Source of the DNA: Rugalucina vietnamica
Lineage: Eukaryota; Mollusca; Bivalvia; Lucinida; Lucinidae
Reading direction: 5' to 3'
Length of the DNA: 64,000 bases
Assembly: GCA_964017185.1 (NCBI GenBank)
Contig: OZ024871.1
Coordinates: 57,959,226-58,023,225, forward strand
A program made the translations under genes and the position numbers. The notes below the pieces were generated by a model. The model saw only the letters and a list, made by a program, of their open reading frames with translations. It was not told the DNA's origin and searched no databases. This document shows, one piece after another, positions 1-63,560 of the stretch. Numbering within the stretch: the first letter of the stretch is position 1; each line of letters starts with the position of its first letter.

Positions 1-423
1 ACTAACATACCAGTAATCAGTTTACTGGTCTCCTGTAATTTACTGACAACTACTCAAACCGGAGGAATTATAAATAATTCATGGTCAAATCTTTATGAAA
101 GAAATATACTTGACATTAAGGTCTACCTACCGCCTGATATATATAATAAGAATCTGGCACACTACCGACATAGCCATCTACCACAAGAGCAGCTTGGCAA
201 GTTATGAGTAACTATAGTATTCTATGAATGAATGAGGAAAGCCAAGTAGTTAATGAGAAATATGCTCTTGGGAAAGCCTGAACATCTGAACCCTTCTTCC
301 TTATAATTGTTAAACATATATCCTACTATAAACTAAAGCAATCTTGCCCCCATCAGATAGCACAACAGAGTTTTCAAAGAGAAGTCTTCCAAATTCTCTT
401 GACTGAACAGTCTCTCAGCTGAG
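1..423. other. Sequence downstream of DCTN4, no gene seen
   Basis: AT-rich sequence beyond the 3' minisatellite of DCTN4. It is presumably distal 3' UTR or intergenic DNA. I see no convincing poly(A) signal for the minus strand and no coding potential, so the transcript end is not placed. Confidence 0.5.
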
Positions 424-1316
424 GTGATTATTTAGCGGGAGCTACAGGACCCAAGTTGACACAGACCCTGTGCTCTAGCCAGACAACAGAGGTGATTATT
501 TAGCTGGAGCTACAGGACCCTAGTTGACACAGACCCTGTGCTACAGGACCCAAGTTGACACAGACCCTGTGCTCTGGCCAGACAACAGAGGTGATTATTT
601 AGCGGGAGCTACAGGACCCAAGTTGACACAGACCCTGTTCTCTGGCCAGACAACAGAGGTGATTATTTAGCGGGAGCTACAGGACCCTAGTTGACACAGA
701 CCCTGTGGTCTGGCCAGACAACAGAGGTGATTATTAGCGGGAGCTACAGGACCCTAGTTGAGACAGACCCTGTGCTACAGGACCCAAGTTGACACAGACC
801 CTGTGCTCTGGCCAGACAACAGAGGTGATTATTTAGCGGGAGCTACAGGACCCAAGTTGACACAAACCCTGTGCTCTGGCCAGACAACAGAGGTGATTAT
901 TTAGCGGGAGCTACAGGACCCTAGTTGACACAGACCCTGTGCTCTGGCCAGACAACAGAGGTGATTATTTAGCGGGAGCTACAGGACCCTAGCTGACACA
1001 GACCCTGTGCTCTGGCCAGACAACAGAGGTGATTATTTAGCGGGATCTACAGGACCCAAGTTGACACAGACCCTGTGCTACAGGACCCAAGTTGACACAG
1101 ACCCTGTGCTCTGGCCAGACAACAGAGGTGATTATTTTACGGGAGCTACAGGACCCAAGTAGACACAGACCCTGTGCTCTGGCCAGACAACAGAGGTGAT
1201 TATTTAGTGGGAGCTACAGGACCCAAGTTGACACAGACAACAGAGGTGATTATTTAGCTGGAGCTACAGGACCCAAGTTGACACAGACTCTGTGCTCTAG
1301 CCAGACAACAGGAGGT
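424..1316 (-). repeat. Minisatellite of 68-bp units made from the DCTN4 stop-codon region
   Basis: About 12 units, marked by GAGGTGATTATTTAG at 424, 490, 590 and onward. Read on the minus strand, each unit repeats the C-terminal codons of DCTN4 ([15 protein letters not shown]) followed by TAA. The copy nearest the gene is the real end of the last exon, so the array starts inside coding sequence and runs through the 3' UTR. Some units carry an extra 33-bp sub-duplication (CTACAGGACCCAAGTTGACA). Unit junctions share the short match ACAACAG(G)AGGT with the exon, which fits slippage or microhomology-mediated expansion. Confidence 0.92.
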
Positions 1317-1460
1317 TCCTGGTTTTCTGTTGGTAGTGCTGAGGCAGTGTTCTTGTAGATGTGTTTCAGTATAAAACATGCCTTCACATCACCATCCTGG
1401 GCTAGGGGTGTCACTTTACATACAACACCAATCTTGTTGGCCTTCCGAAATGCAATAATG
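1250..1460 (-). CDS. DCTN4: DCTN4 exon 12 (last, with stop)
   Basis: The acceptor TTTGTTTTGTTTCAG precedes CATTATTGCATTTCGG. The first base completes a Ser codon split with exon 11, then [18 protein letters not shown] follows, a strongly conserved C-terminal segment. The TAA stop at 1252-1250 lies inside the first unit of the downstream minisatellite, so the final residues (about [15 protein letters not shown]) are encoded by repeat DNA. Confidence 0.96.
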
Positions 1461-4400
1461 CTGAAACAAAACAAACATTGCAGCAGCTAAACATACCCCA
1501 ATAAATTACATTTAGTTGTATTCCCTAAATCAATAAAAAATAAGATGCTACTGTCCATACACCATCTTTCAGAAACTGCCTTTTTTCAAAATATCACTTT
1601 TCTGAAATGTATCAAGAAAAATATGATAATCTCACCGTTTTGCATTCCAAATGTCATACCAGAGGACCAATGGTCCTGTAAACGCTCACCTGAGATCAGC
1701 TGCATAACCAATAAACATGTTTGAATATTATGGTATTTAACTCCAGTGCAGGGGCAGATGAAGCCCTTGGGCCATTTTCTTTTTTCAGAATCTTCAATAT
1801 TCTGTCCATTTGCCAATTTCCTGCTGGCTTTTCCCTTCAAATGACATTTTAACAGTTTTCCCAATTCAGATGCATAGGCAACCAATGTTGACCTTGCCAT
1901 AAACTTGGTCAAGGTCATCACAGGGTCATGATTTATATATACATTGGAGTACTTTAGCCATCGATGCCTCACGCCAAGTTTCCTTTAAATCAGTCTATTG
2001 GTTTCAGAGAAGATGATTTTTGATGGGTTTTTACCATATATGGGCATGGCGGCCATCTTTGTTATGTGACCTAGATTATTTATATATACATTGATTCCCC
2101 CATTCTATAGATGCTTCACATAAAATTTGGCTTTGATTGGCCAAGCGGTTCCAGAGGAGAAGACGTTTGAATATTATGGAAATATACATGTATATTGCCC
2201 TGGGGTGGGGGCACATGAGCCCCTGGGGTCCATTTTTTTCAGAATCATTAATATTCAGTCCTACTTCCCATTTTCTGCAAGACTTTCACTTTAAATTACA
2301 TTTTAAAAGTTTTCCCCATTCAAATGCATTGGCGACCTATGTTGACCTTGCCGTAAAATAGGTCAAGGTCATCAAAGGGTCATGATTTATATATACATTG
2401 TAGTGCTTGAGCCATTGATGCTTCGTGCCAAGTTTCGTTGAAATCGGTCAACCGGTTATGGAAAAGAAGATTTTTGAAGGGTTTTTACCATATATGGACA
2501 TGGCGGCCATCTTGGTCATGTGACCTGGATTTTTTATATACATATTTGTTACCTCTTCCTATTGATGCTTCACATAAAATTTCGCTTAGATTGGCCAAGT
2601 GGTTTCAGAGGAGAAGACGTTTGAATATTATGGATATATACAAGAATATTGCCCTGGGGTGGGGGCACATGACCCCTGGGGTCCAATTTTTTTCAGAATC
2701 ATTAAAATTCAGTCCTACTGCCCATTTCCTGCAAGACTTTCACTTTAAATGACATTTTAAAAGTTTTCCCCATGCAAATGCAATGGCGACCTATGTTGAC
2801 CTTGCCGTAAAATAGGTCAAGGTCATCACAGGGTCATGATTTATATACTGTACACATTGTAGTGCTTGAGCCATTAATGCTTCATGCCAAGTTTCGTTGA
2901 AATCAGTCCACTGGTTCTGGAGAAGAAGATTTTTGAAGGGTTTTTACCATATATGGGCATGGCGGCCATCTTGGTCATGTGACCTGGATTTCTTATATGG
3001 TGCGACACCACTCAAAATTTATCACTCCGCCGTACCCCACGAAAATAGTGCATTTGAAAATTTTGCCTAGGTGAGTTTGACACTGTATTACGAGCACATT
3101 TATTTGTGTCTGTTTTATATTTAGTATGCACTGCAAAGTATCACTAGTGTACGACATTTGGGTGTACAAAACACGATCTTAAAAGAGACTATTTCTCGTC
3201 GGAAGCTTCTGTCTGTAAACTACCCCCTCCTCAAATCTGCACCATTCTAGAGGGTAAAACCCAACCCTAGGGTGGTTGCAAAACGGAATACCGGAAAAAC
3301 TCAACGGTCAACCCCCCTTTGAACTAGGCTCGTTGGGTAGATGTATGGCTGAGCGATAAGGCAAGGGGAGTCCTTTTGGTCATAAAATGTTTGGTAACAG
3401 CTGGGAGTGTCACAAAGTGCGACAATTTGCATTGTGGCCTATGGAGAATTTTGACTGGTGTCACCCAATATACACATTGGTTCCCCCTTCCTATTGATGC
3501 TTCATATAAAATTTGGCTTTGATTGACCAAGCGGTTTCAGAGGAGAGATCTTTAAAATTGTGGACGGACGAACGACGGACGGACGGATGGACGGACGGAT
3601 GCCGGATCATGGCCATCCTATAAGCTCACCTTGTGAGCCTAACGGCTCAGGTGAGCTAAAAAAGTGTTGCAAAAAATTAAAAATCTGTTAACAAATAAAA
3701 ATTTTATACCAGAAAATAATTTTGAATAGGGCTTTTCCCCATTGTGAAAATGTAAGTAAGTGAACTATTTTCCCAGATTCAAAATGATTTTAGGGCATAA
3801 AATTTTTATTACTCATTGGCTTTTCAAAATCTTTGCGGAACTTTTTAGGACTTTTGGGATGCAAAGTGATGACAGGTTCATAACTGTCTGCAGCTGTTTC
3901 AGAAAAGGCTGATCTTTGGAAATGGAACTATGAAAGTTAACTATAACTACCTAAGATTTAGAGGTCTCACTCATATTGTGAAAGAAGTGTGTTCATATAC
4001 CAAATGAGTGCCAAGACACAAGGCAAAATCACTGAACCGTGAAATAAGGTCACACTGACCTATAAGTATTTCAGGGTCAAAGGTCTAGTGATACTTACTC
4101 ATAATGTGACAGAAATATGATCATATACCCATTCAGTGTTGAGATATAAAGCAAAAACACTGTACCATGAAATTAGGTCATAGTGACCTATAAGTATGTT
4201 TGGGTTAAAGGTCTGGTCATACTCATTCATAATCAGAAAGAAGTATGAAAAAATACCAACTGAGTATCGAGATATAAGGCAAAATCACTGAACCATGAAA
4301 TTAGGTCACAGTGACCCAGGAATACTTTACGGTCAAAGGTCTTGTCATGCTCATACATATCGTGAAAGAAGTATGTCCATATACCAATTGAGTGCTGAGA

Positions 4401-7400
4401 TATAAAGGAAAATCACTGAACCGTGAAATTAGGTCATATTGACCTAGGACTACTTTAGGGTCAAAGGTCTTGTCATACGCAAACATAGTGTGAAAGAAGT
4501 TTGTTCATAACTACTTGAGTGCTGAGATATAAGGCAAAGTCACTGAACCGTGAAATTAGGTCACAGTGACCTATAAGTATATTGAGGTCAAAGGTCTGGT
4601 CATACTCACTCATAATCTGAAAAAAGTATGAATGAGTGTCAAGATATAAGGCAAAAATCACTGAACCGTGAAATTAGGTCACAGTGACCTAGGACTACTT
4701 CAGGGTCAAAGGTCTTGTCATACGCAAACATACTTTGAAAGAAGTTTGTTCATAAACCATTTGAGTACCGAGATATAAGGCAAAATCACTGAACCGTGAA
4801 ATTAGGTCCCAGTGACCTATAAGTATACTGGGGTCAAAGGTCTGGTCATACTCACTCATAATCTGAAAAAAGTATGAAAATATACTAATTGAGTGTCAAG
4901 ATATAAGGCAAAATCACTAAACTGTGAAATTAGGTCACAGTGACCTATAAGTATATTGGGGTCAAAGGCCTGGTCGTACTCACTCATAATCTGAAAGAAG
5001 TAAGAAAATATACTAATTGAGTGTCAAGATATAAGGCAAAATCACTGAACCGTGGAAAGTAGGTCAACCGACCCTTACCATCTTCCTAAGTTGTTTCTAT
5101 TAAGAAATAAAAAGAAAAAAAAATTCGGGGAGTTTTAGATTTTGACCTCTAGCCCCACCCCCCAGTGTATGAAGTATGAATGCTTTATGATAAGTTGCTG
5201 TCCAGATATGGACTCCTTGTAAAAGTTACACAGCAGTACATCTATTTTTTACAGTGTTCTAGTTTTTAACCTCCAGCCCCACCCCCAGGCATGGACCCAG
5301 AGATAAGATGCCATGAAATGAAACTCAACCCTACAGGGTACCTATGGTCCGAGTATGAAAGCCCTCTGATAAAAAGTTTTCAAGATATAGACTTCTAGAA
5401 TACTATATCACAGAAAAGCCATTATTATTAATGGTGTTCTAGATTTTAACCTCTAGCCCCACCCCCTGGCATGGACCCAGGGATCTGATGCCATGGAATG
5501 AAAGCCGACCCTACAGGGTGTCAATGGCCCAAGTATCAATGCTTTCTGATGAGTGGTTGTCAAGATATGGACTTCTAGAAAACTTTAACACAAGAATTGC
5601 CATTTTTGAAGGTGTTCTAGATTTTAACCTCCAGCCCCACCCCCTGGCCTGGACCCAGGGGTCCGATGCCATGGAATGAAAGCTAACCCCACAGGGTATC
5701 TATGGTCCAAGTATGAATGCTTTCTGATGAGTGGTTGTCAAGATATGGACTTCTAGAAAACTTCAACGCAAGTGTGACGCGCACGGGAACGCGCACGGGA
5801 ACGGGAATGCACACGGGAACGGGAACGTGGACGACCGGGGTGACTGCAATAGCTCTATGAGCTAATAATAATAATATTAATAGTAATTTCTATATTTAAG
5901 AGGATAATGTTTTTTTAGCATAGATGCCATTCTTCCATACTGTCCTCCAGTGAATACAGACATTATTATCAGACTTTTTTATTTTCAAATATATACCGGT
6001 ATATTGTTTCATAAATTTTATTAGACATGCCATGTTAGGGATGCTATATTTTTGAAGAATGCCTTATATTGCGCCAAGGTATCATTTTTTACCTCTTTAG
6101 AATGACACAGCCTGGAATCAGGGATGGAGTGAGTACTGAGGTACTTGATTAAGTATTGAGTACTGGCATTTTTGAAAGTACTGAAGAAAGTACTGAGAAC
6201 TGAAGTTTTGAAAATACTTAAGTACTGTGTACTTAACAAAAAGTACTCATGAGTACTTCTGAGTAAATTAAAGTACCCAAAAGTTTACTTAAATATTTAT
6301 CAAATGAAAAAAGAAAAAAAATCTGCCTGTAAATCTGTCACAGAAAGTTCTTAACCTCAAGCCCATGCATAATGCATGCTGAAATTTCTTTCCCTTTTTT
6401 GAGAAAAACAAGTTCACAAGAAACTAAAAAAGATTTATCTTAAAGGATTGTACCAGCAGTTATTGAGAGTTGAAACACTATCAAAGCATCTATTAAATGT
6501 TCAAATATATGCCTATTTATGTCATATAAATTCTTTATATGTATTTCATCATCGAACTAGAAAAAGAACCTTGAGAGGCACGTATACCCCCGGCTGGTAG
6601 ACACCCACCCAAAACCCACCACCTCTAACCTAACCCTGGACATGCTCACTCCTGACACATTCAACCTCAATTCCTGAATCAAAGAGAACACACTCAACAT
6701 CATTGAAATAAGCATTTGCAGAAAGCACTTTCCCCATAGCCATCTGGCCATGGGCGGAGGGGGGCGGTAGTAGAACAACATATCCTTAAGCAGTATACAG
6801 AGCCAACTTGTATACTCAATCTAGGACTTGATCTCAGACATTGATGGTCAGGTCCTTGGTCCAAGATTGTAATTGAAAATAGAATGTCATTCTTCAATAA
6901 TAAAACTAAAATAATATAAGATGTCATAGATCTTGACCTCTAGCCCAACCATGGGCATAATGATGTCATAAGAGTCTGATGTCATAAGAACAAAGCAAAC
7001 CTTATAGAGTACATGTGGCCCAAGTATGGTTGTGTGAAATAATTTGTAAAGAAAAGTATACAAAATACAATTTTTAAAGAAGTTCTAGATTTTGACTTCT
7101 AGCCCCACCCCCACACATGGACCCAAGAGTCTGGCACTTACAGGATACCTACTATCTAAGAATAAATGCTTTCTGACTTTGTGGATGTCAAGATATAGAC
7201 TAACAGAAAATCTATTATGGCATCTATCATATTCTAAAGGTGTCCTAGATTTTGACCTCTAGCCCCACCCCTGGGGATGGCACCCAGGATTTGGTGCCAT
7301 GAATTAAAAGCAAACCCTACAGGATATCTATGATCTTAATACATGTACGAATACATTCCTATGACCAATTACTAAGATATAGACTTAGAGAAGAAACATT

Positions 7401-10400
7401 AACACTGTAATAACCACGGCTAACAAACAGTTAAATGCGTAACCGCCGGTTAATAATAGAAATCCGATTCACGTCCTTCCGGTTTTGCGTGTGAGGTGCA
7501 ACAAAAGGTAAACAAAACATACACTACTCGGATCGATCGATGATTATTTTGTAACACAGAAAGGTATCAAAAATCTAAGAATTCTATTTTGTCACTTATT
7601 TACCATTGTTAGACAGCACCAAAACAGTTTGCAACATTACTTGATGTTTTTGGCGTTATTTGTTCCCTCCTTCGAAAAAGATGTTTCAACACCGTCAAGG
7701 ACGACAAAATACAACTAAAAATTGGGCAATTTGGCGTTAAATATCAAGTTTTTGTGATTGTTCCACGCCACATTTTGCAGATATACATTAAAAAAAATGA
7801 CAACTGATGTATGCTACAGTACACTTTTCTCAGGGTCCAGCATTTCTGTTTTGAAGGGAAGAAAAAAATGGTTAAGCATTTAATCATGAAATTAAGAAGG
7901 ATTTATTTCAAGTGATATTTGAAAACTTCTGCCTTTTTTTATGAAGTTTAACATTCTCTGTACAGCGTTAAAGATTAAAGCAGACCAAAAAATGCAAATT
8001 ACAGTATATACAATGTTGTAAAGTCTAAGTTTTATCATAAACAGAAATACCATACATGCAAATTATTGTATTGCTTGTTTGTTGCAAAAATGTTTGTATT
8101 TTGATATATACAAAGCATTATCATTGCAAATATCACAAATAAACCAAATTTGGATTTTTTTTCATTTTCCTGGAGAGGGGCTGTCTGATTTATTTTCGGT
8201 TACGCATTAGAATACCTGGTTAAGCATTGGAGTGTGTACAATTGGAGAGCAACAGAAACCAAAGCAGCCCCATTAATAATATCTATACGTTTTTTGTTGC
8301 TGATTTTTTATTTCTTAGAATAATATCTTTGATATTTATAGTTATAGTTTAACACTTTTACTGCCACGCCTCTCAAAAAATCAATATCTCACTGCCAAGC
8401 ATATATTTATTTTATTATTTTTATTGATTTATTAATTAATTCATTAATTATTATATTTTTAGATATATGCGCATGTTATATATCACTGAAAAGGGCTTTT
8501 TACGCTTGATAATCTGATATACATTACATTTATCTCCCTTTAAAACTTTCACCCTATAACCAGATAACCCGGGGCATGCCGGTATACCCGTAAAACGACT
8601 ACAGTCGTCGGTGGCAGTGAACGGTAAAAACGACTACAGTCGTCGGCGGCAGTGAATGTGTTAAACTAAGAAATTGTTGATGTAAATGGAGACGTTTTAC
8701 AGCCGCCACATGAATCCAGCTGATACATTATTTTTATATTTATTTCAGTATGGGTGTTTTTAAGGGAAAACGAAAGCTAGGTAGACGCTTGTCAAGTTAT
8801 GTGAAAAAGACTACCTTTTATCAGACCAAAGACCCCACACGCTCCCCTCTACGCAAACGAGTGTTTGCTTTAAATTATTCTCCAATTGTATCATCAACTC
8901 CAGCATGTAGTGTGAAAAAAAAAGAAAAACACTCCCAAGAAAACACCACAGAAGTCTAGCTCAAAGCGGAAACTTTCCTTCACCACAGGCCCCTTTGATG
9001 ACACCCTTCCCTTTTCTCCCCTGAAATCAGAGGCTGATCTTCAGTATTTTGACCCCTACTTTACGGACACCCAGGCAGATGACAGTAGGGGTCTCAAATA
9101 CGTACATAATCTTTTGCCACGTGTGCTTCAAGAGCTTGGGCGTGTTGGGAAAAGTGATACTTTCGTAAAGTTCTTGGAACTTGTGAATGAGATAAAATTT
9201 CCCTTGAATAACATTGCATTCTCTCTGTTTTGCGATGTTGTATCGTGGTACAGCAGATACTCGTTGCATGAGATATTCTGAAGATACTATTCAGTTTTTT
9301 GGGGTTGGTCTGAAGCTTTTTGGTGTGAGATTTGTTCGTTTCATGACAGGAATGAAAAATTTCCGACCAGTTCTGACACAAACCGACCTGAATAGACAAG
9401 AAGCAAGCTAGACGCTTGAAATTTCGGATTAAAGAAGAAGAGAAATTCAGCTAACGGTGAAGCGCAAACAAAGGCGCTGATCAGCTTCGCACTTACAGCG
9501 AAGCTGATCTGCGCCTTTGTTTTCGCATAAGCAAAAATCCGGTGTTCCCACTATGCGGCTCTTTAATATTGTTGGCTAATTGCTTACCCAAAATATCATG
9601 TTCGATCGGTCTTTATGTCCTCTGAAACTACAAGGACAATGAATGAATATTAATGCGCATTATTCAACTGATGATGTCAACGAAAACAAACAATGCTTGC
9701 ACTTTCCCGAGCACTTTCCCTTATTAAGACTTGGTTGCTAGCAGCTATATTCCGGTATGTAACATATAACGCCAAAAGGCTAAAATGTTATCATTTCCTT
9801 TAATACGCGCATTATTCTGTTTGTAGACGGGATTTTCCCGTTGGTTTGCCATGGTAACTTCAACAGAAGTGGAGTTAGGTGATCTATTCTATGCTATTTT
9901 CTGATCTTCCGTTCAACAACAATGCGAGATCTCCGTACAACCGCAATGCGATGTCACGATAACCGTGTGTTGTCATGCATTTCTAAATATCATAGTATAA
10001 AACCTTATATTCTGAAATAAATGAATAATCACCGCTGTGTCCGGTGTGGGTACATTATATTTTATTGGCCAAATAAAAATGGAGATGAACTCAATATATG
10101 ACCCCCCCCCCCTCGTGGGAAAATCAATGTTGTGGTTTCCGACCAGGTCAGACACAAACGAGGCTGTACATCCACAGAAAATAGCTAGTTGCTTGAAATT
10201 TCGTATTTAGAAAGTAGAGAAATTGTACTATCCGTGTAACGCAAACAAAGGCGCTGATCAGCCTCGCGCATCTGTTCTGCGCCTTTGTTTCAGCATATGC
10301 AGATAGTTGGCTTTCTCTTGCAGTGGCTCAATTTAATATAAAAGTATATAATTCTCTCCCTATGCAAATACAAACCAGCTCTCACTGAAGTGTTCAATGA

Positions 10401-13400
10401 GAATGCACCTAATCCTTCCTAAATAACACAGGAATTTATTAGAACAATGTGTAGAGTAATATGATTTATTCCCGATAGCTCAGTGGTTAGAGCGTCCGCT
10501 TCGGGAGCGGTAGGTCGTGGGTTCGCGCCCCGGCTTAGCCATATCAAAGGCGTTAAAATGGTACTGGTAGCTCCCTTGCTGACGCTCGCAGTAAAAGAAT
10601 AGTGCCAGGAAGATACAAGAAGACAGTTAAGTATCTGTCAAGGATGTTTGTTATGTCGCATAATAGCTCATGAGCTAATGTTGTCTGTTGAAAACGAAAC
10701 GTTAAAGAAAGCTTCTTTATTTTTATCTTTATATAAAAAAGCTTTTAGACTACATAAATACAGTATAAATAGGCTAGTAATGTATCCTGTTATTCTTTTG
10801 AATGTTCTGGTAATGTGGAAATTTATGTATACTGTCTTTTTTCTCACAAACCATGTCAATCAAAAGTAAAATCAAAGCAAAGAAATGTGTTGTTGTTTTT
10901 AAAAAAGAATATCTTGAAATAACATAACGCCCGTAGCTTCATTTGCTATTAAATAGCCCACACTTTTAAAGCTTGATAAGATACGTTGAAAATTAATCAA
11001 ATGCTTAACCGAACCATCAAATGCTTAACCAGGATAAAAAATACATATATTACCTGCGTCCATGATTTGAAACATTATCACACACTAATACAATAAGAAA
11101 AAGGAAGTACAAGAGATATTTAAGGATTTTGTATATGCAGATTCTCGTTTGTTTGTTTTGTTTCGCGCACACCACTGTCAGTCAAAACCCCTTGAATAAA
11201 ACTTGATTTGTAGAGGTAAAAACCATACAGAGATGACGAGACAATGTGATAATTAAATTGTTTAGCATAAAAATCGATATAGAAACTTATTTACATGTGT
11301 TTATTATGTCGATTTTTGGCTATCATTCTAATGATTAAATGCGTGACCGAAATTTTGACACAGCTATTAGCCACATATACATAGAATGCAGTGGTCAATG
11401 GCAAGGAAAATGTTCACAGAACTTATACAATGTCAAATTCATCTGTTCGCTGCCTTGCCGTCCGTTTATAATGAAGCAATTAGCGGGGATCTAAAATTAT
11501 CCCTATGTCTGACCCACATTTTCTTCATGTACAATGCAAAAGTCAACAAACATTTTGGAGGAGGGAATAAAAATCACGATTATAAAGAAACAAATCTGGA
11601 AATCCTTTGGGATACGATGAGATAAATTTATAACTAACAAAGTAGCATTGAGAAAATCTTAATAACTTTCTCCAGGTAAAAATAAATAACTTGGAAACGC
11701 GAGTTACGAAAGTTTGTTTACCTTTTACTGCACCTCACACGCAAAACCGGAAAGACGTGAATCGGATTTCTATTCTTACCCGCGGTTACGCATTTAACTG
11801 TTTGTAAGCCGTGAATAACACATTTTAACGGTGACCTTGATTTTGACCTCCAGCCCCCTGCCCCGAACATTGGTTCATGAGAAATACACCACTAGAGAAA
11901 CTTTAACCAAAACTTTGACATAAATTCTACGAACGGTCCGGAATTATGAACGAACATACAAACTAACTAACATTCGAACGGATCAACGGAAAAGCGAAAA
12001 CTATATACCCGTCGGCATAAAAGCCGGGATTATAATAAGAGAATATCATACAAAAGCATATTTATACAAGCAAAATTAAGTCATGTCACTTTGCTTTAGG
12101 TTTGCTTTCATTTGAACCCTTAGTGTGTATATAGATTTGTATTAAATGTACTACACATGACCATGTATTTTTTACAGTAGAAATGAATAAACTGTCAAAC
12201 TACAGCTCAAGATAGTGGTGTGAGCAAAGAAGCTTTGTGTTGTGTGTTTAAATTATAATGAAATTGATCTGCAATATCATTGTATTGAGGGTCTTTCTTT
12301 AGTTGGTATATCGACTTTCAAAGACACTAGATGTAGACCTTTTGTGAAGGGTAACATACAAAAGAAGATTGGTTTTCATGTTAAGCATTTCAATGCACCA
12401 TTTAACCATTTTAAAAAACACTGAAAATTGTATAACTAAACTGCACTCTGATTATGTTTAAATGTATATAAATATCTGTACCAGGAAGTTGATTTTATTT
12501 TGAAGAGCATGTTTAAATTGGCCTCTTTATGCGATAAAAACACCTATAAATCAAAGTGTTGAATCACTACTAAAATTTTAATAAAAATTATACAAAATGA
12601 CAGATTTATACAAAGCAAATAAGGCCTATATTACCCTCTAATTACAAAAATCAAAATCAGAGTAGCAAGAAGAAGATTAAGATTTGGAATTTATACTTTG
12701 GTTATGTTTTTATAGTACAAGGCTGATGACATGGACACATAATGTAATTTGCATATCAAACTTATTTGAAATGCTTTCCAAGAAGCTCATTCAAAATACT
12801 TCAGAAGAAAACTTGCTTTTTTGATAAAGTAAAAAAGCACAAAAAACATGGTGACCGTGTAGCTGATTGATGTCTTCAATACAGAGATGTAACCTGGTAC
12901 CTCATCTTCTAAATCTCAAATTCCAAGCCCAATTTAAATCAGATCTGGTAGGTGCCCCTACTGTCAGTAGGTTACATTTAAGGTAAGATTCCTCTATCAT
13001 AAAACAATCTGACCTAGTTTCTACCTTTCTTGTCTATGCCAGGTCATAAAAGATTTTAGACCTATGATTCAATGAGTTAAACTTTCATAGATCTAATAAA
13101 CATCATGAAATGAGGGAGACTGGAGTTATATACCTTGAATCATCTTTAAACTCTTGTTGCCCCTGGTTACTATCAGCATAGATGGCAGCATCATCTCGCG
13201 GGGCCAGTGCCAGTTCTTTCTTAGGAAGCTCAATCTAAAATACAACACAGCTTTAGTCAGGTACAAAGCTGAAGTGCTTTGCAAGACTATGTTACTGTTT
13301 AGACACTGTACAAAGAAGAGAGAGCAGGTTTCCAAAGGAGTGTATTTTTGTCACATAGCAACAGCATTTTATTTGACTAGCAGAAAAAGTACAATGATAA

Positions 13401-25400: not shown

Positions 25401-28400
25401 AGCTAAAAATGAAAAGAATTCGGCAAGCATTCGCTACACATTCGCTTCATTTGTAAGGTGTTTGCAAAACGTTCGTATTATTTGTAACGGCATTTGTAAG
25501 CGTTCGGAACATTCGTAAGGTATTTTCAAGAATTCGGTAGTGTGGATGGCAATCAATCACAACATTCTTAAGACATTTGTAAGGATCCGCAAGCATTCTT
25601 AACGCTTTCGCAAAGACATCGTTTTGTACAAGCCCCGCCCGGAACAATCGCATCATATTCGGTAATTTCAGCGCGAATTTCAAATTTTAGCATTCGCAAG
25701 GGATATTCGGTATATGGGAGAGCAGCATAAATCATAAAGATTCAGTCCATTTGCCAATTTACTGCAAGTTTTACCCTAATAAGAGCTGTCGCAGGACAAC
25801 ATAGCTCGTCTGACTTGTGCTTTGCCACTAAATCTATTAAATCTATGACCAAAGACATTGACCTCAATGTCACTCAGGTGGGTCGTGATGGTACAGCATA
25901 AAACTTCAGACCAATATCTACCAACATGCTAAGTTCAACTTGATCCATCTACATATTTGATATAAACTTATACCCTAAAACCCAAGTCTGTGACCTTGAC
26001 CACAGGTGAGTCAAGATGCTACAGCATAATAAAAGAATAATATCTAATAGCAAAGTATCAACTAGATCCATCCATCTGTTCCAGCAATATACAGTTCAAA
26101 ACACTTTAAGCAAAAGCTTTAACATAAAATTTCAAAGTCTGTGACCTTGAACACAAGGTCACCCAGGTGGGTCATGATGGTACAGCATAAAACTTCAGAC
26201 CAATCTCTACCATCATGCAAAGTATCAACTTGATCCATCTACATATCCAAGAGATATAGACTTATAAAAACTTTAACCAATAAGAGCTGTCGCAGGACAG
26301 CGCGCTCGACTGCTTCTGATCTTTGTCAAACATAAGGCCAAACCCGACCTGTAACCCAAAGCACTATGCTCATACATCTCTTTGCATTGATGCAATAAGG
26401 CAAAATCACTGAACCATGAAAGTCAACTATAACTACCTAAGATTTAAAGGCCTCACTCATATTGTGAAAGAAGTGTGTTCATATACCAAATGAGTGCTAA
26501 GATACAAGGCAAAATCACTTAACTGTGAAATAAGGTCACACTTACCTATAAGTACTTCAGGGTCAAAGGTCTAGTCATACTTAGTCATAATGTGAAAGAA
26601 ATATGATCATATACCCATTGAGTGTTGAGATATAAAGCAAAATCACTGAACCATGAAATTAGGTCATAGTGACATATAAGTATGTTTGGAATAAAGGTCT
26701 GGTCATACTCATTCATAATCAGAAAGAAGTATGAAAAATACCAACTGAGTGTTAAGATATAAGGCAAAGTCACTGAACCATGAAATTAGGTCACAGTGGC
26801 CCAGGAGTACTTTACGGTCTAAGGTCTTGTCATACGCAAACATATCGTGAAAGAAGTATGTTCATATACCAGTTGAGTGCCGAGATATAAGTGAAAATCA
26901 CTGAACCGTGAAATTAGGCCATAATGACTTATGACTACTTTAGGGTCAAGGGTCTTGTCATAAGCAAACATAGTGTGAAAGAAGTTTGGTCATAAACCAA
27001 TTGAGTGCCAAGATATAAGGCAAAATCATTGAACCATGAAATTAGGTCATAGTGACCTATAAGTATGTTTGGGTTAAAGGTCTGGTCATACTCATTCATA
27101 ATCTGAAAGAAGTAAGGAAAATACCAACTGAGTGTCGAGATATAAGGCAAAATCACTGAACCATGAAATTAGGTCACAGTGACCTAGAACTACTTCAGGG
27201 TCAAAGGTCTTGTCATACGCAAACATATCCTGAAAACAGTATGTTCATGTACCAATTGAGTGCCGAGATATAAGGCAAAATCACTGAACCATGAAATTAG
27301 GTCATAATGACCTAGGACTACTTTAGGGTCAAAGGTCTTACCGTGAAATTAGGTCACAGTGACCTATAAGTATATTGGGGTCAAAGGCCTGGTCATACTC
27401 ACTCATAATCTGAAAGAAGTAAGAAAATATATTAATTGAGTGTCAAGATATAAGGCAAAATCACTGAACCATGGAAAGTAGGTCAACCGATCCTTACCGT
27501 CATGACACACAAGTCAGTGTCGCAAAGTCAAAAGATGAATGACCAACCATCTTCCTAAGTTGTTTCTATTAAGAAATATAAAGATAAAAAAAATCAGAGA
27601 GTTCTAGATTTTGATCTCTAGCCCCACCCCACTGACTCTGACCCAGAGGTCCGACCGATGTCATGGAACCTAAAGTGTATGAAGTATGAACGCTTTATGA
27701 TAAGTTGTTGTCAAGATATGGACTCCTTGTAAAATTTACGCAACAGTACATCTATTTTTTACAGTGTTCTAGTTTTTAACCTCTAGCCCCACCCCCAGGC
27801 ATGGACCCAGAGACCCGATGCCATGAAATGAAACTCGACCCTCAGGGTACCTATGGTCCGAGTATGAGAGCCCCCTGATAAAAGGTTTTCAAGATATAGA
27901 CTTCTAGAATACTATATCACAGAAAAGCCATTATTATTAATGGTGTTCTAGATTTTAACCTCTAGCCCCATTCCCTGGCATGGACCCAGGAAGCCGATGC
28001 CATGGAATGAAAGCCGACCCTACAGGGTGTCAATGGCCCAAGTATCAATGCTTTCTGATGGGTGGTTGTCAAGATATAGACATCTAGAAAACTTTAACAC
28101 AAGAATGGCCATTTTTGAAGGTGTTCTAGATTTTAACCTCCAGCCCCACCCCCTGGCCTGGACCCAGGGGCCCGATGCAATGGAATGAAAGCTAACCCTA
28201 CAGGGTATCTATGGTCCAACTATGAATGCTTTCTGATGAGTGGTTGTCAAGATATGGACTTCTAGAAAACTTTGATGCAAGTGTGACGCGCACGCGCACA
28301 GGGGGGAACGTGGACCACCGGGGTGACTGCAATAGCTCTATGCACTTCGTGCAGTCGAGCTAAAAACTCTAACACAAAATTTCTAAGTCCGTAACCTTGA

Positions 28401-31400
28401 CCTCAAGGTCACCAAGGTGGGTCATGATGGTACAGAATAAAACGTCAGACCAATAGCTACCAACATATAAAGTATCAACCTGATCCATCAACAACTTCAA
28501 GAGATATAGACTTATAAAAACTTTAACCAAAAACTTTAACAAAAAATTTCTAAGTCTGTGACCTTGACCTCAAGGTCACCCAGGTAGGTCATGATGGTAC
28601 AGCATAAAACCAATATCTACCAACATGCCAAGTATCAACTTGATCCATCCACAACTTCAAGAGATATAGACTCATAAAAACTTTAACCAAAAACTTTAAC
28701 ATTTTGAGCAAAGCCGACGCCGACGCTAACGCCGACGCTGGGGTGACTGCAATAGCTCTTCCTGTACTTTCGTACAGGCGAGCTAACAATTTTCCCCATT
28801 CAAATGCGTGGGCAACCTAAGTTGACCTTGCTGTAAAAAAGGTCAAGGTCATCGCAGGTTCTTGATTTATATAGACTTTGTAGAGCTCCATTGCCTGATG
28901 CTTCATGCCAAGTTTCAAAATCATAGGCCTTCTGGTTCTGGAGGAGAAGATTTTTAAATGTTTTTACTATTTATAGCCATGGCGGCCATCTTGGTCATGT
29001 GACCTTGACCATTTATACAAACTTTCATTCACTCTTCCTAAGAATGCTCCACATGAAGTTTGGCTTTGATTGGCCAAGCGGTTTCAGAGGAGAAGATCTT
29101 TGAAATTGTGGACGGACGACAGACGACGGACGCCAGAGCATGGGTATACTATAAGCTCACCTGTGAGCCTTCGGCTCAGGTGAGCTAATAAAAGCAATGG
29201 CAAATTTTAGTTTGATTTGTGGCTTAGCATCCTAGTCAACAGCTATGGTCATGTTCGCACATTGCTTCCATTTTATGAGACTTCTATCCAAACTTAGGAT
29301 GCCATGACACCCAAAAAGTGCTGAAAAAAATAACCAAATAAGTAATCAACTAAGGCTTATATGTATGGGTGGTTTGACATGAACCACTTTTCCTGGGCAA
29401 GCACAGACCTTCTGAGCAGTTAACCAGTAATCAGATGGCTGGTCAGCAGTTCATGAGCTTTGCCTGGAGGCATACACAGCCCATCTATGTCTCAAGGCAC
29501 CAATGGGCAGGGGCCAATAAGGCAAAATCTTGCTGAAAGATGAAGTAAGGAATGACAGGCTTCCAATGGATCACACATTTAACAGAGCTATAACTCACTT
29601 TTGTCAAGCTGTAACACATCAGCAAATATTTCCTTTAGTAGTGGAGGCAATGATTCCACAGCCTCTGCCTCCTTCACAGGCTTGATCACAATCTCTTCTC
29701 CTTCCTTGATCCTACAATCAAGTTAAATATCTTAAGTGTGCTTTTATTAACAGTTTCATATTCTCACAGTTATGTGTCTAAAGTGTGTTTATCAATAAAT
29801 AAGATACACATGTTGTGTCAGAAATAAAAACAAGTAGCCCAAAGGGCAACAATGCTCATCTGAGTGTCAGCATGCATACTCTTTGGACAAAAGAAAAGTA
29901 GTTGGGTTTTTTACCATATATGGACATGGCGGCCTTCTTGGTCAATGTGACCTCGATTTTTATATACATATTGGTTCCCCTTTCTATAGATGCTTCAGTT
30001 TTAATTTTTATTTGCTATTACTGCAGCTGGTGGTGTGCCCTGTGGCAGCTTTAAAAAGTCTCCCAGTACATCATCCATAGTGCAGATTATCCTTTTGGTC
30101 CTTTGGGGTGGGGCAAGATGAGCTCCTAATTTTTTTGAGAATCATTTATATTCAGTCCTACTGGCCATTTCCTGCAAGATTTTCCTTTTAAATTACATCT
30201 TAAGTTTTTCCCATTCAAATGCATAGCAACTTATGCTGACCTTGCCGTAAAATAGATCAAGGTCATCAAAGGTTCATAATTTATATAAACATTGTAGTAC
30301 ATGTACTTGAGTCATCAATGCTTCATGCCAAGTTAAGTTTAAAAGTTTACCGGTTCCCGAGAAGAAGATTTTGAAGGGTTTTTACCATATATGGGTATGG
30401 CGGCCATCTTGATCATGTGATATTTGAAAATGTGAACAGGTGGACGCACACACACACACAAGCTAGCTTGAGTACCATCCTATAAGCTCCCCATGAGCCT
30501 TTGATTCACAAAGTCCAGGCACAGAACAAAACAGTCAATCAAATCAGAATGCTTCCCAATATTGAATATTCTAAAAGGTATATATAATGAATATATGAAA
30601 AGGTATGAATATAACATGAATGCTTGTTCAAGAATTCTAGAGTTCTTGAATAATTAAAAGGTCCACCATATGGCTAATAAAGATCAAGTAATACTAAGTT
30701 TAAAGTAATTAAAAGATAGTGTATACAACTTACGGTGAAGCTCCTGACGCCAGTGTTTTACGTTTCATGGCTACAGAAACCAGACCATACTTGTCCATAC
30801 TAGCCTGTAACATACATAACATCATTTCTTAGTTATTTGTCTCTTCTGACATATTGAAGTAATCAATCTGTATGAAATAGGGATTACCTATTACAGGACT
30901 GGTAAAGGTAGGCAATGATCAGGAAATGGCGCGATCAGAAAGAAATTCTCACTCCAAATACCAAGGTGGGAAAAACTAAACCAGAGGACCATTGGTCCTG
31001 AGAACACTCACCTGAAGCCTGATCTTGGAGTATTAAGTCATCATGAAATGACCTTGACCTTGAATACTCACACACCTTTATTGACTTCATAAGTTGTCTG
31101 CATCTGCAAAGCTTCGTGTCTCAGGCTGCAATAGTTTCCAAACCCAGTGATTTCTGAGAAAACCATAATTTAATTTTGATATTTAAATGACCTTGGGTCA
31201 AGGTCAAGAAATGACCTTGGCCTTCATTAATTACTTACCTTCATTGACTCCATTAGTTGTCTGCATCTAGCAACTTTCAGGTCTCGAGATGCAACAGTTT
31301 CCAAAATATCCATTGTTTTGCCTTTTCCCATGTAAAAGCCTATGTTTCCAAAATTGTCCTTGCCATAAAATAGGTCAAGGTCATCCTAGGGTCATCATTT

Positions 31401-34400
31401 CAACAAACTATGATGGGCTGGAGTCCCAAATGCTACAACCAAGTTTCGCGTAAATTGGCCAGCCGGTTCTGGAGAAGATTTTCGAGTGGTTTTTACCATA
31501 GTTGGGCATGGCGGCCATCTTGGTCATGTGACCCGAATTTCGCGAACAAACTTTTGTCTCCCCTACCCATGGATGCTCCTCATAAAATTTCACTTTGATT
31601 GGCCAAGCAGTTTCAGAGAAGATCTTTGAAAAGTGAGTATGAATCAAGACAGGCCAAGGTCAAGGGATGACCTTGACCTAAATTAATCACATACCTTCAT
31701 CTACTCCATTAGTTGTTTGCATCTACCACTTTTCAGGCCTCAGGCTGCAATTAATTTCAAAAAATCCATAGTTTTCACTTTTTCCCATATAAAAGCCTAT
31801 GTTTCCAAAATAGAAATTGCCATAAAATAGGTCAAGGTCATCCTATGGTCATCATTTGATCAAACTATGATGGGCTGGAGTCCCAAATGCTACATACCAA
31901 GTTTCATGAAAATCGGCCTGCCGGTTCTGGAGAAGAAGATTTTTGAGTGTTTTTTACCATATATGGGCCTGGCGGACATCTTGGTCATGTTTCGATCAAA
32001 CTTTTATCTTCCCTACCCATGGATGCTTCACATGAAATTTCACTTTGATTGGCCAAGCAGTTTCAGAGAAGAAGATCTTTGAAAAGTGTGTATGGACGAC
32101 AGACTGGCCAAGGTCAAAAGATGACCTTGACCTAAATTAATCACATACCTTAATCTACTCCATAAGTTGTTTGCATCTACCACTTTTCAGGCCTCAGGCT
32201 GCAATAGTTTTCAAAAAATCCAGTTTTCACTTTTTCCCATGTAAAAGCCTATGTTTCCAAAATTGACATTGCCGTAAAATAGGTCAAGGTCATCCAAGGG
32301 TCATCATTTGATCAAACTATGATGGGCTGGAGTCCCAAATGCTACATACCAAGTTTTATGTGAATCGACCAGCCGGTTCTGGAGAAGAAGATTTTTGAGT
32401 GGTTTTTACCATATATGGGCGTGGCGGCCATCTTGGTCATGTGACCTGGATTTTGCAATCAAATTTTTGTCTCCCCTACCCATGGATGCTCCACATAAAA
32501 TTTCACTTTGATTGGCCAAGCGGTTTCAGAGAAGAAGATCTTTGAAAAGTGTGTATGGACGACAGACTGGTCAAGGTCAAAAGATGACCTTGACCTATAT
32601 TAATCACATACATTCATCAACTCCATTAGTTGTTTGTATCTACCACTTTTCAGGCCTCAGGCTGCAACAGTTTTCAAACTAGAGGACCATTGGTCCTGAG
32701 AACGCTCACCTGAAGCCTGATCTTGGAGTATTAAGTCATCATGAAATGACCTTGACCTTGAATACTCACTCACCTTTATTGACTTCATAAGTTGTCTGCA
32801 TCTGCAAAGTTTCAGGTCTCAGGCTGCAATAGTTTCAAAACCCAGTGATTTCTGAGAAAACCATAATTTGAATTTTGATACTTAAATGACCTTGGGTCAA
32901 GGTCAAGAAATGACCTTGGCCTTCATTAATTACTTACCTTCATTGACTCCATTAGTTGTCTGCATCTAGCAACTTTCAGGTCTCAGGCTGCAACAGCTTC
33001 CAAAATATCCATTGTTTTCGCCTTTTCCCATGTAAAAGCCTATGTTTCCAAAATTGACCTTGCCGTAAAATAGGTCAAGGTCATCCTAGGGTCATCATTT
33101 CAACAAACTATGATGGGCTGGAGTCCCAAATGCTACATACCAAGTTTCGTGTAAATCGGCCAGCCGGTTCTGGAGAAGAAGATTTACCATAGTTGGGCAT
33201 GGCGACCATCTTGGTCATGTGACCCGAATTTCGCAATCAAACTTTCGTTAGGTCAAGGTCATCCTATGGTCATCATTTGATCAAACTATGATGGGCTGGA
33301 GTCCCAAATGCTACATACCAAGTTTCATGAAAATCGGCCAGCCGGTTCTGGAGAAGAAGATTTTTGAGTGGTTTTTACCATATATGGGCGTGGCGGCCAT
33401 CTTGGTCATGTGACCTGGATTTCGCGATCAAACTTTTGTCTCCCCAACCCATGGATGCTCCACATAAAATTTCACTTTGATTGGCCAAGCAGATTCAGAG
33501 AAGATCTTTGAAAAAGTGTGTATGGACGACAGACTGGCCAAGGTCAAGAGATGACCTTGACCTAAATTAATCACATACCTTCATCTACTCCATTAGTTGT
33601 TTGCATCTACCCCTTTTCAGGCCTCAGGCTGCAATAGTTTTCAAAAAATACATAGTTTTCACATTTTCCCATGTAAAAGCCTATGTTTCCAAATTTGACC
33701 TTGCCGTAAAATGGGTCAAGGTCATCCAAGGGTCATCATTTGATCAAATTATGATGGGCTGAAGTCACCGATGCTACATACAGTGGTGTTATAGCTAAAA
33801 ATCCAAATTAGCCGTTTAAACATCTAATTTGTTAATGGCTAATTGTAAAATTTCGCGGCGAAATTGTGTGAAAAATAAAAGTCAGCGCGGAATTTCGCCG
33901 CAAAATTCCACCGCGAAATTCAGCCTCAGGTGAGCTAAAGATCCATAGTTTTCACTTTTTCCCATGTAAAAGCCTATGTTTCCAAATTTGACCTTGCCGT
34001 AAAATAGGTCAAGGTCATCCAAGGGTCATCATTTTATCAAACTATGATGGGCTGAAGTCCCCGATGCTACATACCAAGTTTCGTGGAAATCGGCCCTCCG
34101 GTTCTGGAGAAGAAGATTTTTGAAGTGTTTTTACCATATATGGGCGTGGCGGCCATTTTGGTCATGTGACCAAGATATCGCGAACAAAATTACAATGCCA
34201 CTACCCAAGGAGGCTCCACATAAAATTTCAACTAGATCGGCCAAGCGGTTTCAGAGAAGAAGATCTTTGAAATTGTGGACGACGACGGACGGACGCCGGA
34301 TCATGGCCATCCCATAAGCTCACCTTGTGAGCCTTCGGCTCAGGTGAGCTAATTAACAATGAAGCATTTATATTAAGGCCAAGTGAGCAGCTATTTTCCC

Positions 34401-37400
34401 TATAGGCGGCCACTCAGTTACCGAAACTTAACTAAAAAATATGAAAACATGCATCAGGTGCAAACAGCACAAAAATTCAATGCCAAAACACTGGCGGGGG
34501 GGGAGGGGGGGGGGGGTAAACTAGTTTTACAGGCGCCTGACCTCACCCTAAATTTCTGCAGCATTTCACAACATTTAGTTAGTGAATCTCTAACTAGTCA
34601 ATGAATCCCCAAGGAAAAACAAATTAATAATGATAACCACTGTTATGAATAAAAAACGAGAACTCACAGATACAATGACTTGTCTGGAGATCCCTGGGCA
34701 GGCCTATTTCTGTCTATAGAGAAAACCAGGGAACCAATGGTTCCCATGATCTCATTAGCTTTGGTCTTTGAAAAATGTCATTTGACCAAGTTAAAAAAAA
34801 TGACCTTGACCTTGAATACTACGTACATGTATTCTCAGTAAACTGCTTGTGTATACCAGTACCATTTTTCAGATCACATGCAGCAAACTTTATGAAAAAT
34901 CCAGTATACCTTTTTTCCATTGGAAAATCTATGTGACCAAAATCGACCATGCCATATGTCAATCCAAATCTTGCCCAAGATCTTAACAGCAACATCAAGA
35001 TCTTGCTTTATATAAAAAAAAATTATGATGGCAACAGTCCTCAATGCTAAATACCAAGTTTTGTTGAAATCTGTCCAACAGTTCTGGAGAAGATTTTTGA
35101 AGGCTTTTTACCATATTGGTTGCCATCAAGTGACTCCTTTTAAAAGCACCTTGTGAGCCTAACAGCTAAAAAGTAAAGGTAAAAATGTGTTCCTGGTGGC
35201 CCCCTAGGCCTAAAGCACTGATAATTATATTATCACACTTAACCATTCGATCATCTCACCGCTGTGTCTGGTGTGGGTTCAAGCCCCTCAGAGGAAACAT
35301 GTGAGACAAGCAAAATTCTGCTTGTGGGTGTGCCGGGTGGTTTTTCTCGAGATTCTCCCATTTTCGCCCCACCTACTGATTGGCCCGTCTCATAAGAGCT
35401 GAAATAATCTTGAAAGGGATGTAAAACTGAATTTAAAAAATATAAAAAAAATAAAATGTTCCCACTCAAATTTCATCCTGCACATTATCAATATACATGT
35501 AGCAAATTTAAGGAATATAGACAATTTCCAGGTGATTCAAAACAGCATGCCTAAATACTATTTGACATTAACCAACACTAGGTGTGGCTAAATTCACCAT
35601 GCTACTGTTATACATACAGCATACATGAGATGACTTCTCCTTCTCACATATTTCTTCCTCTCTTTCTCTGCCTTCTCCTTCTGGGCCAACTGATGGTAGT
35701 TCTCCAGTAGACGACTGATCTACAAACACAATCATGCACAATAAACTGATGGTAGTTCTTCAGTAGACAACTGATCTACAAACACAATCATACACAATAA
35801 ACTGATGGTAGTTCTCCAGTAGACAACTGATCTACAAACACAATCATACACAATAAACTGATGGTAGTTCTCCAGTAGACAACTGATCTACAAACACAAT
35901 CATACACAATAAACTGATGGTAGTTCTCCAGTAGACGACTGATCTACAAACACAATCATACACAATAAACTGATGGTAGTTATCCAGTAGAAGACTGATC
36001 TACAAACAAAATCATACATAATAAACTGATGGTAGTTCTCCAGTAGACGACTGATCTACAAACACAACCATACACAATAAACTGATGGTAGTTCTCCAGT
36101 AGACAACTGATCTACAAACACAATCATACACAATAAACTGATGGTAGTTCTCCAGTAGACAACTGATCTACAAACACAATCATACACAATAAACTGATGG
36201 TAGTTCTCCAGTAGACACAATCATACACAATAAACTGATGGTAGTTCTCCAGTAGACGACTGATCTACAAACACAATCATACGCACAATAAACTGATGGT
36301 AGTTCTCCAGTAGACGACTGATCTACAAACACAATCATACACAATAAACTGATGGTAGTTCTCCAGTAGACAACTGATCTACAAACACAATCATACACAA
36401 TAAATTAATGGTAGTTCTCCAGTAGACGACTGATCTACAAACACAATCATACACAATAAACTGATGGTAGTTCTCCAGTAGACGACTGATCTACAAACAC
36501 AATCATACACAATAAACTGATGGTAGTTCTCCAGTAGATGACTGATCTACAAACACAATCATACACAATAAACTGATGGTAGTTCTCCAGTAGATGACTG
36601 ATCTACAAACACAATCATACACAATAAACTGATGGTAGTTCTCCAGTAGACAACTGATCTACAAACACAATCATACACAATAAACTGATGGTAGTTCTCC
36701 AGTAGACAAATGATCTACAAACACAATCATACACAATAAACTGATGGTAGTTCTCCAGTAGATGACTGATCTACAAACACAATCATACACAATAGTTCTC
36801 CTGTAGACAACTGATCTACAAACATAATCATACACAATAAACTGATGGTAGTTCTCCAGTAGATGACTGATCTACAAACACAATCATACACAATAAACTG
36901 ATGGTAGTTCTCCAGTAGACGACTGATCTACAAACACAATCATACACAATAAACTGATGGTAGTTCTCCAGTAGAAGACTCATCTACAAACAAAATCATA
37001 CACAATAAACTGATGGTAGTTCTCCAGTAGACAACAAACACAATCATACACAATCAACTGATGGCGGTTCTTCAGTAGAAAACTGATCTGCAAACACAGT
37101 CATACACAATCAATTGACGTTAGTTCTCCAGTAGAAGACTGATCTACAAACACAATCATACACAATCAACTGATGGTAGTTCTCCAGTAGACGACTGATC
37201 TGCAAATACAGTCATACACAATCAACTGACGTTAGTTCTCCAGTAGAAGACTGATCTACAAACACAATCATACACAATCAACTGATGGCAGTTCTTCAGT
37301 AGACGACTGATCTGCAAACACAGTCATATACAATCAACTGGTGGTAGTTCTCCAGTAGAAGACTGATCTACAAACACAATCATACACAATCATGGTCTGT

Positions 37401-62904: not shown

Positions 62905-63560
62905 CTGTCCTCCCCTATCCAATACCCTACCCTACCCTACCCTACCCTACCCTTACTGCTACCCTAACTTTACTCCTACCATTACACCTAACCACCTACC
63001 CAACACCTTACCTCCTACCCTATCCTTACGACTACCCCTACCCTCCCCCTACTCCTAATCCTTCCCCTACCATACCCTTACTCTACACATAACCTCCTAC
63101 CCTACCCTACTCATACCCATACTCTACTCTTACTCATACTCTTTGCCCTTACCCTTACTCCTTCCCTTACTCTACCAATACCATACCCTAACTTCTACTC
63201 CTAACCATAACCTACCCAAACTCTTACCCCTACCAGGCTACCCTTACTACCATTGCTGCTACTCCTTAACCTACCATACCCTTACTCCTACTTCTACCCT
63301 ACCAGTATTCATATTCTTATCCAACCTTACGAGTTACCATTACACCTACTCATTACCCTACCATCCCCTTACTCCTACTCCTACCGTACTCTTCCCTTCT
63401 TCTATCTTACCATACTCTGCCTTGCCGTGCCCTACCCCACCTAACCCTACCCTATCAAACCCTATCCTTACTCCTACTACTTACCCTACTCTACCCTACC
63501 CTTACTCATTACTCTACCGTACCCTTACTCCTACCCCTCTTTTCACTATCCCTACCTTAC
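62905..63560. repeat. Degenerate (CCCTA)n tract
   Basis: It starts with about six perfect CCCTA units near 62924-62953, then about 600 bp of variants (CCCTTACTC, CCTACCCT, ACTCCTAC). It is pyrimidine-rich on plus, so the DCTN4 coding strand reads (TAGGG)n. Open frames inside it are low-complexity Pro/Tyr/Leu strings and are not genes. Confidence 0.85.

Follow-up and report, generated by a model that had tools for sequence, protein, structure and literature searches.

Minisatellites built across coding edges of the DCTN4 gene in the bivalve Rugalucina vietnamica resemble the mirages of amphioxus

The dynactin subunit 4 gene (DCTN4) of the bivalve Rugalucina vietnamica raises the question of why three minisatellites in one gene should each contain one of that gene's own coding edges. 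The gene lies in a window of 64,000 nucleotides (the whole stretch of DNA that was analyzed), which corresponds to C3:57959226-58023225 of a 1.09-Gb, 47-contig assembly whose contig C3 is 83 Mb long. With a probability of roughly 0.85, the arrays are "mirages," i.e., minisatellites that were founded by a tandem duplication reaching across a coding edge (two splice acceptors and one stop codon). An original prediction made from the letters of the window had stated that no named system does this; it was mistaken, as the name is used for minisatellite-like tandem duplications of intron–exon boundaries in amphioxus (PMC3087553 and PMC3902484). The observations behind this reading are units that span an edge, arrays restricted to a single locus, an intact gene, and recurrence on the acceptor and donor sides at other genes. 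Overall, the arrays are best read as ordinary minisatellites that a single selected copy holds in place, and their excess at edges is moderate.

The DCTN4 gene is intact on the minus strand. Its joined frame is open over 453 codons plus the stop, with GT-AG ends at 11 of 11 introns, and the 453-residue product matches the solved dynactin subunit 4 with an E value of 5.5e-146. The exons were located with one tblastn search using the human protein as the query, while the identity of the gene rests on the other evidence; the start codon at 62580 was chosen, and the best protein relative (P0006, a predicted protein, 91% identical and of equal length) starts with identical residues. The next relatives, at 75%, are from Mercenaria mercenaria and Mactra antiquata, both heterodont bivalves of the order Venerida, which makes it very probable that the present animal is also a heterodont. 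The gene parts and arrays concerned are the following:

1250..62580, minus strand: DCTN4 coding region in 12 exons, with the start at 62580 and the stop ending at 1250
35618..35719, minus strand: exon 5, conserved in relatives, whose first 32 bp are the 3'-most copy of the 56-bp array
20833..20906, minus strand: exon 9, which starts with GTG (Val), in contrast to the GAG (Glu) of 13 of the 15 copies
1250..1460, minus strand: coding part of exon 12, whose 3' end is the first copy of the 68-bp array in the direction of the gene
35688..37391, minus strand: 56-bp array at the exon 5 acceptor, made of 24 bp of intron end and 32 bp of exon 5 start
20863..21691, minus strand: 58-bp array at the exon 9 acceptor, made of the intron end TTTTCACCAG and the exon 9 start; two of its units are partial, at 38 bp
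421..1310, minus strand: 68-bp array at the stop codon, made of the last codons, TAA, and a little of the 3' flank; shorter units recur within it

The array units were aligned copy by copy on the gene strand. In the exon 5 unit, the intron part ends with TTTGTAG and is joined to ATCAGTCGTC, and there are 29 acceptor copies including the real one; in the exon 9 unit, TTTTCACCAG is joined to G(A/T)GTGTGAG, and the array has 15 acceptor copies, again with the real one included. The copies of the stop array lie in the 3' flank, presumably in the 3' untranslated region. In each of the three arrays, the copy that continues into the remaining exon is the terminal one, because a tandem duplication across an acceptor joins only its last copy to the exon and one across a stop joins only its first. 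The claim that the real exon is always terminal, with the array extending away from it, is thus right as geometry, but it would be true of any tandem duplication that crosses an edge and is therefore no evidence for a directional process.

The three units have no match to each other or elsewhere in the window at E 1e-5, which bears out the earlier claim that they are unrelated and that the pattern arose three times. When the unit consensuses were searched against the whole assembly, with very common words skipped, 56 matches were obtained, and all 56 lie inside the three DCTN4 arrays. A common origin of the arrays is rejected for lack of similarity, and an array dispersed as a satellite or carried by a transposon is rejected in view of the confinement of the matches. 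Separate origins of the three arrays, each from a coding edge of DCTN4 itself, are supported. No hairpin-prone units were found (z-scores of -0.75 to 0.53 in seven folds). By eye, the seed breakpoints share approximately two bases at exon 5, none clearly at exon 9, and approximately five (ACCTC) at the stop array, and nothing distinctive is seen in them.

If used, each upstream acceptor copy would give a premature stop, i.e., 28 of 28 at exon 5 and 14 of 14 at exon 9 (42 of 42 in DCTN4), which fits the earlier suggestion that selection keeps the exon copy fixed. In the stop array, the real coding end and the far-end copy have CTA (Leu), while the inner copies have CCA; among the 105 of 125 fetched proteins that match the pattern, the residue at this position is Leu in 100, Ile in three, and Met in two. 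The inner copies appear to be free to change and homogenized. The most diverged copies of the exon 5 array are at its intronic far end. The 27 full-length exon 5 copies have 55 substitutions, none of them at the AG, where approximately two would be expected by length, and this therefore says nothing on whether the decoys are under selection.

It is very improbable that the arrays are functional, with tandem decoy acceptors diverting transcripts into stop-containing forms and so tuning DCTN4 output by copy number. In its favor, all 28 and 14 upstream copies keep AG and would bring a stop, and the human IFI6 repeat supplies splice donors that are used (PMC4526556), but the retention of AG is not distinguishable from chance, the stop-codon array cannot act as a decoy acceptor, and in amphioxus, Adh3 data and reverse-transcription PCR of globins suggest that regular splicing is undisturbed by mirages (PMC3087553).

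The exon 9 array carries a trace of exchange with the real edge. The real exon shares its Val with one copy, which lies 96 bp upstream; in 13 of 15 copies, the residue is Glu. This position is occupied by Glu in eight of nine aligned mollusc relatives and by Gln in the ninth (Mytilus), and Val is present in none of the 83 pattern-matching proteins among the 125 (Lys in 61, Glu in 18, Gln in three, and Arg in one; 42 were unmatched). In the simplest order, Glu would have changed to Val in exon 9, and the real edge would then have been included in a tandem duplication of 96 bp; alternatively, the exchange may have run in the other direction. Judged from the sequence, the real exon 9 edge is an active member of its array whichever direction the exchange took.

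The window contains four single-locus arrays with at least three clear copies, and three of the four contain an exon or coding edge of DCTN4. The fourth is a counter-example:

54779..55202, no strand assigned: single-locus array of 58 bp in 7.4 copies, in intron 1, which touches no DCTN4 exon edge

Two further arrays are ambiguous, one at 41216-41721 (with one weak relative approximately 400 bp off) and the other at 63037-63538 (degenerate). Of the other window arrays, 14 were tested (the one at 41216 and 13 that have relatives in other parts of the window), and no edge lies in any of them. Among the repeats in the window are dispersed 454-456 bp tandem arrays at 1780-2998, 16696-18026, 23961-25300, and 47271-50889, with relatives also in six other genome stretches (L009, L020, L021, L022, L025, and L026), and paired arrays of 128 bp (3966 and 26457), 178 bp (5172 and 27682), and 166 bp (37675 and 39942). 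Like the edge arrays, these satellite or transposon-borne families are tandem in introns of DCTN4; unlike them, they are each found at several sites and never include an exon edge. Intron 1 also holds, on the plus strand, a 236-codon open frame without a Pfam match at 55302-56012, just downstream of the fourth array, and a 320-codon open frame at 59039-60001 that weakly matches Retrotrans_gag without reaching the cut-off (PF03732, E 0.032). In addition, an open frame at 8916-9281 (plus strand) has a Pkinase_C match marginally below the cut-off (20.8 versus 20.9 bits), and a tRNA-like match of 30.6 bits (E 0.022) is located at 10475-10535 (plus strand).

The probability that a seed of unit length, placed in the gene, includes an edge is approximately 0.02, and so the chance of an edge in three of four single-locus arrays is 3.8e-5, or 1.6e-4 for three of six when the two ambiguous arrays are included. 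When whole arrays are placed at random, P is 0.019. Counted by edges, three of 24 DCTN4 edges lie inside seeds versus 0.21 expected (P 0.0014, for the discovery gene). For the other 21 of the 24 exon or coding-sequence edges, at least 34% of 600 control positions did as well as or better than the best copy within 5 kb; in the same comparison, the figures for the array edges were 1%, 2.5%, and 6%, as the controls include dispersed repeats. DCTN4 was picked for its pattern, and the P values of the window are therefore optimistic, so that an independent sample is needed.

Kinesin-domain exons of the same genome provided this sample. After 122 of 251 first-look candidates were scored, 133 matches were grouped into 96 loci, of which the first 52 of a shuffled order were read; L069 was read outside this order, and 43 were left out. 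The 52 loci have 67 matches, and the removal by hand of three array copies (two in L045 and one in L072) leaves 64 exons with 128 edges. Arrays across an exon edge were found in five of the 52:

L034: acceptor side, 99 bp in 2.0 copies, only a two-copy duplication
L042: donor side, 31 bp in 2.9 copies
L043: acceptor side, 98 bp in 5.1 copies
L045: acceptor side, 170 bp in 3.3 copies
L072, at C2:33650460-33651581: donor side, 184 bp in 2.4 copies, with sub-units of approximately 92 bp

In L043, four of four upstream acceptor copies would, if used, bring a stop in the frame of the real exon. The real exon of L072 has CGA where four of four copies have TGA, and its donor copies comprise four GTAGGTAA and one variant. 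Two arrays near an exon, in L070 and L077, do not lie on it and were left out of the count. The background was taken from eighteen 10-kb stretches (180 kb) at regular steps along one contig, C1, in which 16 arrays of the same class make up 0.89% of positions when each is collapsed to one unit. A null based on whether a position lies in an array was rejected, since expansion inflates the covered bases, and the collapsed units were used instead. One of the random stretches (L028, C1:56000001-56010000) consists of tandem array over its whole length (best row 373 bp). In the assembly as a whole, (TTAGGG)3 has 15,064 exact matches, partly in interstitial clusters approximately 1.3 kb apart (for instance, C1:60243762-60250414).

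Against this background, five of 128 kinesin edges lie in seeds versus 1.14 expected (Poisson P 0.006). Random placement inside the same loci raises the expectation to 1.65 (P 0.027). If only arrays with at least 2.5 copies by the main Tandem Repeats Finder row are counted, there are three versus 0.73 expected (P 0.037), or four (P 0.0065) when L072 is taken by its sub-unit of approximately 92 bp. Seven of the 12 arrays in the sampled loci touch no edge. These values are to be read with the weaknesses of the sample, namely edges defined as ends of hidden Markov model matches, tandem copies that may ease the detection of a locus, comparison stretches drawn from a single contig, and five events in all. 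Moreover, the paired matches of L072 were known from the hit table before the last batch of 12 loci was read, where it stood third in the pre-shuffled order; without this batch, four of 40 loci carry an edge array. Exon-edge arrays are thus recurrent in this genome, and DCTN4, with three of 24 edges, is rich in them but not alone.

Two more cases were chosen by their hit pattern (overlapping tandem matches) and stand outside the count. The kinesin locus L069 (C10:15532681-15537762) has, at 2854-5058 of the gene strand, a kinesin exon followed by a donor-side array of approximately 21 copies of a 107-bp unit, which contains the 3' part of this exon and its donor site. The other is a myosin (L082), with one 135-bp and one 26-bp duplication on the donor side; it is the one myosin candidate read, and small exonic parts are not visible to the myosin matches. 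Two adjoining kinesin matches at C3:46307682-46308150, which overlap in the profile and have stops in the second, make a further candidate. At C3:16465077-16467095, three myosin matches to the same part of the profile lie approximately 950 bp apart, which are perhaps mutually exclusive exons of a muscle myosin.

An artefact of the assembly is the least probable account of these arrays. Tandem arrays are error-prone, and the mirage of BflGb6 haplotype 1 was aberrantly assembled in the amphioxus draft (PMC3087553), but the assembly here is of chromosome scale, the copies have nested shared variants and partial units, and independent cases exist at other genes. Coincidence, whereby some minisatellites of a genome rich in local ones fall on exon edges by chance, is unlikely. 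The genome does appear rich in them, with the 16 arrays in 180 kb of random sequence, and the choice of a window for its pattern, together with the P of 0.019 for whole-array placement, speaks for chance; the independent sample speaks against it, with its P of 0.006 and, under the stricter counts, 0.027 to 0.037.

Slightly less doubtful is a local mutational process that favors exon edges as starting points of tandem duplications, for instance, through breaks or slippage linked to transcription or splicing, as the original prediction had proposed. The seed excess, both in DCTN4 and in the kinesin loci, agrees with it, and the two copies of L034 indicate that long survival is not needed in every case. 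However, this excess comes from five independent events and weakens to P 0.027 under the within-locus null and to 0.037 under the restriction to at least 2.5 copies, the window has at least one local array, and the kinesin loci have seven, that touch no edge, and the units are not hairpin-prone and yielded no common motif. The earlier proposal that arrays be compared with exon edges over all genes was carried out on the sampled kinesin loci; it gave an excess, at a significance that falls under stricter counting. The excess at edges is moderate, comes from five events, and may be mutational in origin or may reflect anchoring.

Under the mirage reading, the arrays would grow and shrink by slippage or unequal exchange and would extend only into the intron or the 3' flank, because the copy joined to the remaining exon must stay correct. 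The splicing machinery would ignore the decoys because exon definition would pair the donor with whichever acceptor lies closest to the unique part of the exon, and the copies themselves would be neutral. The selected copy could serve as a permanent anchor that escapes loss and from which the array is seeded anew, which may lengthen the life of edge arrays relative to those elsewhere and so explain part of the edge excess. The Val common to exon 9 and the copy 96 bp upstream supports such re-seeding, as a single trace. It is offered tentatively, as an idea with less than even odds, that in this bivalve minisatellites repeatedly arise at exon edges or stay anchored there for long, with the protected exon copy seeding them anew.

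Several points weigh against this reading. The 68-bp array begins at the stop codon inside the terminal exon, so that the original claim of three copied exon boundaries holds for the exon 5 and exon 9 acceptors, while the third edge is a coding end and not a splice edge. Correct splicing in this animal is predicted from the genome sequence. The exon 9 edge takes part in turnover, whereas the boundary units of amphioxus globins are excluded from homogenization; the anchoring idea rests on one clear event; and neutrality by itself predicts no excess at edges.

If edges are such birthplaces or anchors, extrapolation would place very many intact decoy splice sites beside real ones throughout the genome. 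Such decoys would then offer active raw material from which introns could be gained, exon boundaries moved, and amino acids changed at edges, as the change of Glu to Val in exon 9 hints. This case suggests that a coding edge can join the turnover of a minisatellite, and the protein sequence may change through repeat dynamics. Should approximately 4% of the exon edges of a bivalve carry such an array, both the neglect of dozens of intact decoys by splicing and the frequency with which arrays turn into new introns would be testable in one genome.

Among known systems, the mirages of amphioxus are the closest. The original amphioxus Adh paper is reportedly that of Canestro et al. 2002. Mirages have been described in Adh3 and the globins BflGb6 and BflGb9 (PMC3087553), and in TnC and PGBD5 (PMC3902484); they occur on the acceptor or donor side, have units of tens to approximately 160 bp, and keep AG or GT in many copies. 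Their units span an exon–intron boundary, as do those of DCTN4 exons 5 and 9 and of the kinesin and myosin cases, while the 68-bp stop array is mirage-like in its working but not by the strict wording. Both boundaries are represented here, the acceptor in DCTN4 exons 5 and 9, L034, L043, and L045, and the donor in L042, L072, L069, and L082, and the splice dinucleotides are kept in the 29 and 15 acceptor copies of DCTN4 and in four GTAGGTAA donors of L072. For undisturbed splicing, DCTN4 offers the indirect signs of an intact frame and a 91% identical relative of equal length. Amphioxus globin mirage clusters vary in length and have homogenized interiors from which the boundary units are excluded (PMC3087553), a pattern that the stop array fits, as does the exon 5 array at its far end, whereas the exon 9 edge joined the 96-bp duplication. 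Copy-number and somatic polymorphism are further features of mirages; the present analysis covers one assembly.

Other systems share single features. The splice donors of the human IFI6 (6-16) minisatellite were reportedly described by Turri et al. 1995. That minisatellite supplies multiple donors (PMC4526556), and it resembles the present arrays as a repeat at an exon edge with repeated splice sites; the IFI6 donors are used, while the DCTN4 copies are putative decoys. In the Rogers model, as described in PMC3087553, introns are gained when AG/GT stretches are duplicated in tandem; the stretches duplicated here likewise carry splice signals, but no new intron is seen, and the arrays are at most raw material. 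The intronic minisatellites of C. elegans (PMC4039745) are a different thing, and a gastropod paper (PMC7931591) concerns intron positions. The open-access literature searched, including bivalve or mollusc and boundary terms, yielded no mollusc mirage within the words used. The two DCTN4 acceptor arrays match mirages in anatomy, and the lineage differs, although an origin in cephalochordates is no part of the mechanism. What distinguishes the present case from amphioxus is a mollusc host, three arrays in one gene, up to 29 acceptor copies, an array on a stop codon, and a boundary copy that takes part in turnover; mirages, otherwise described from amphioxus in the papers found, are new in a mollusc, where they are recurrent.

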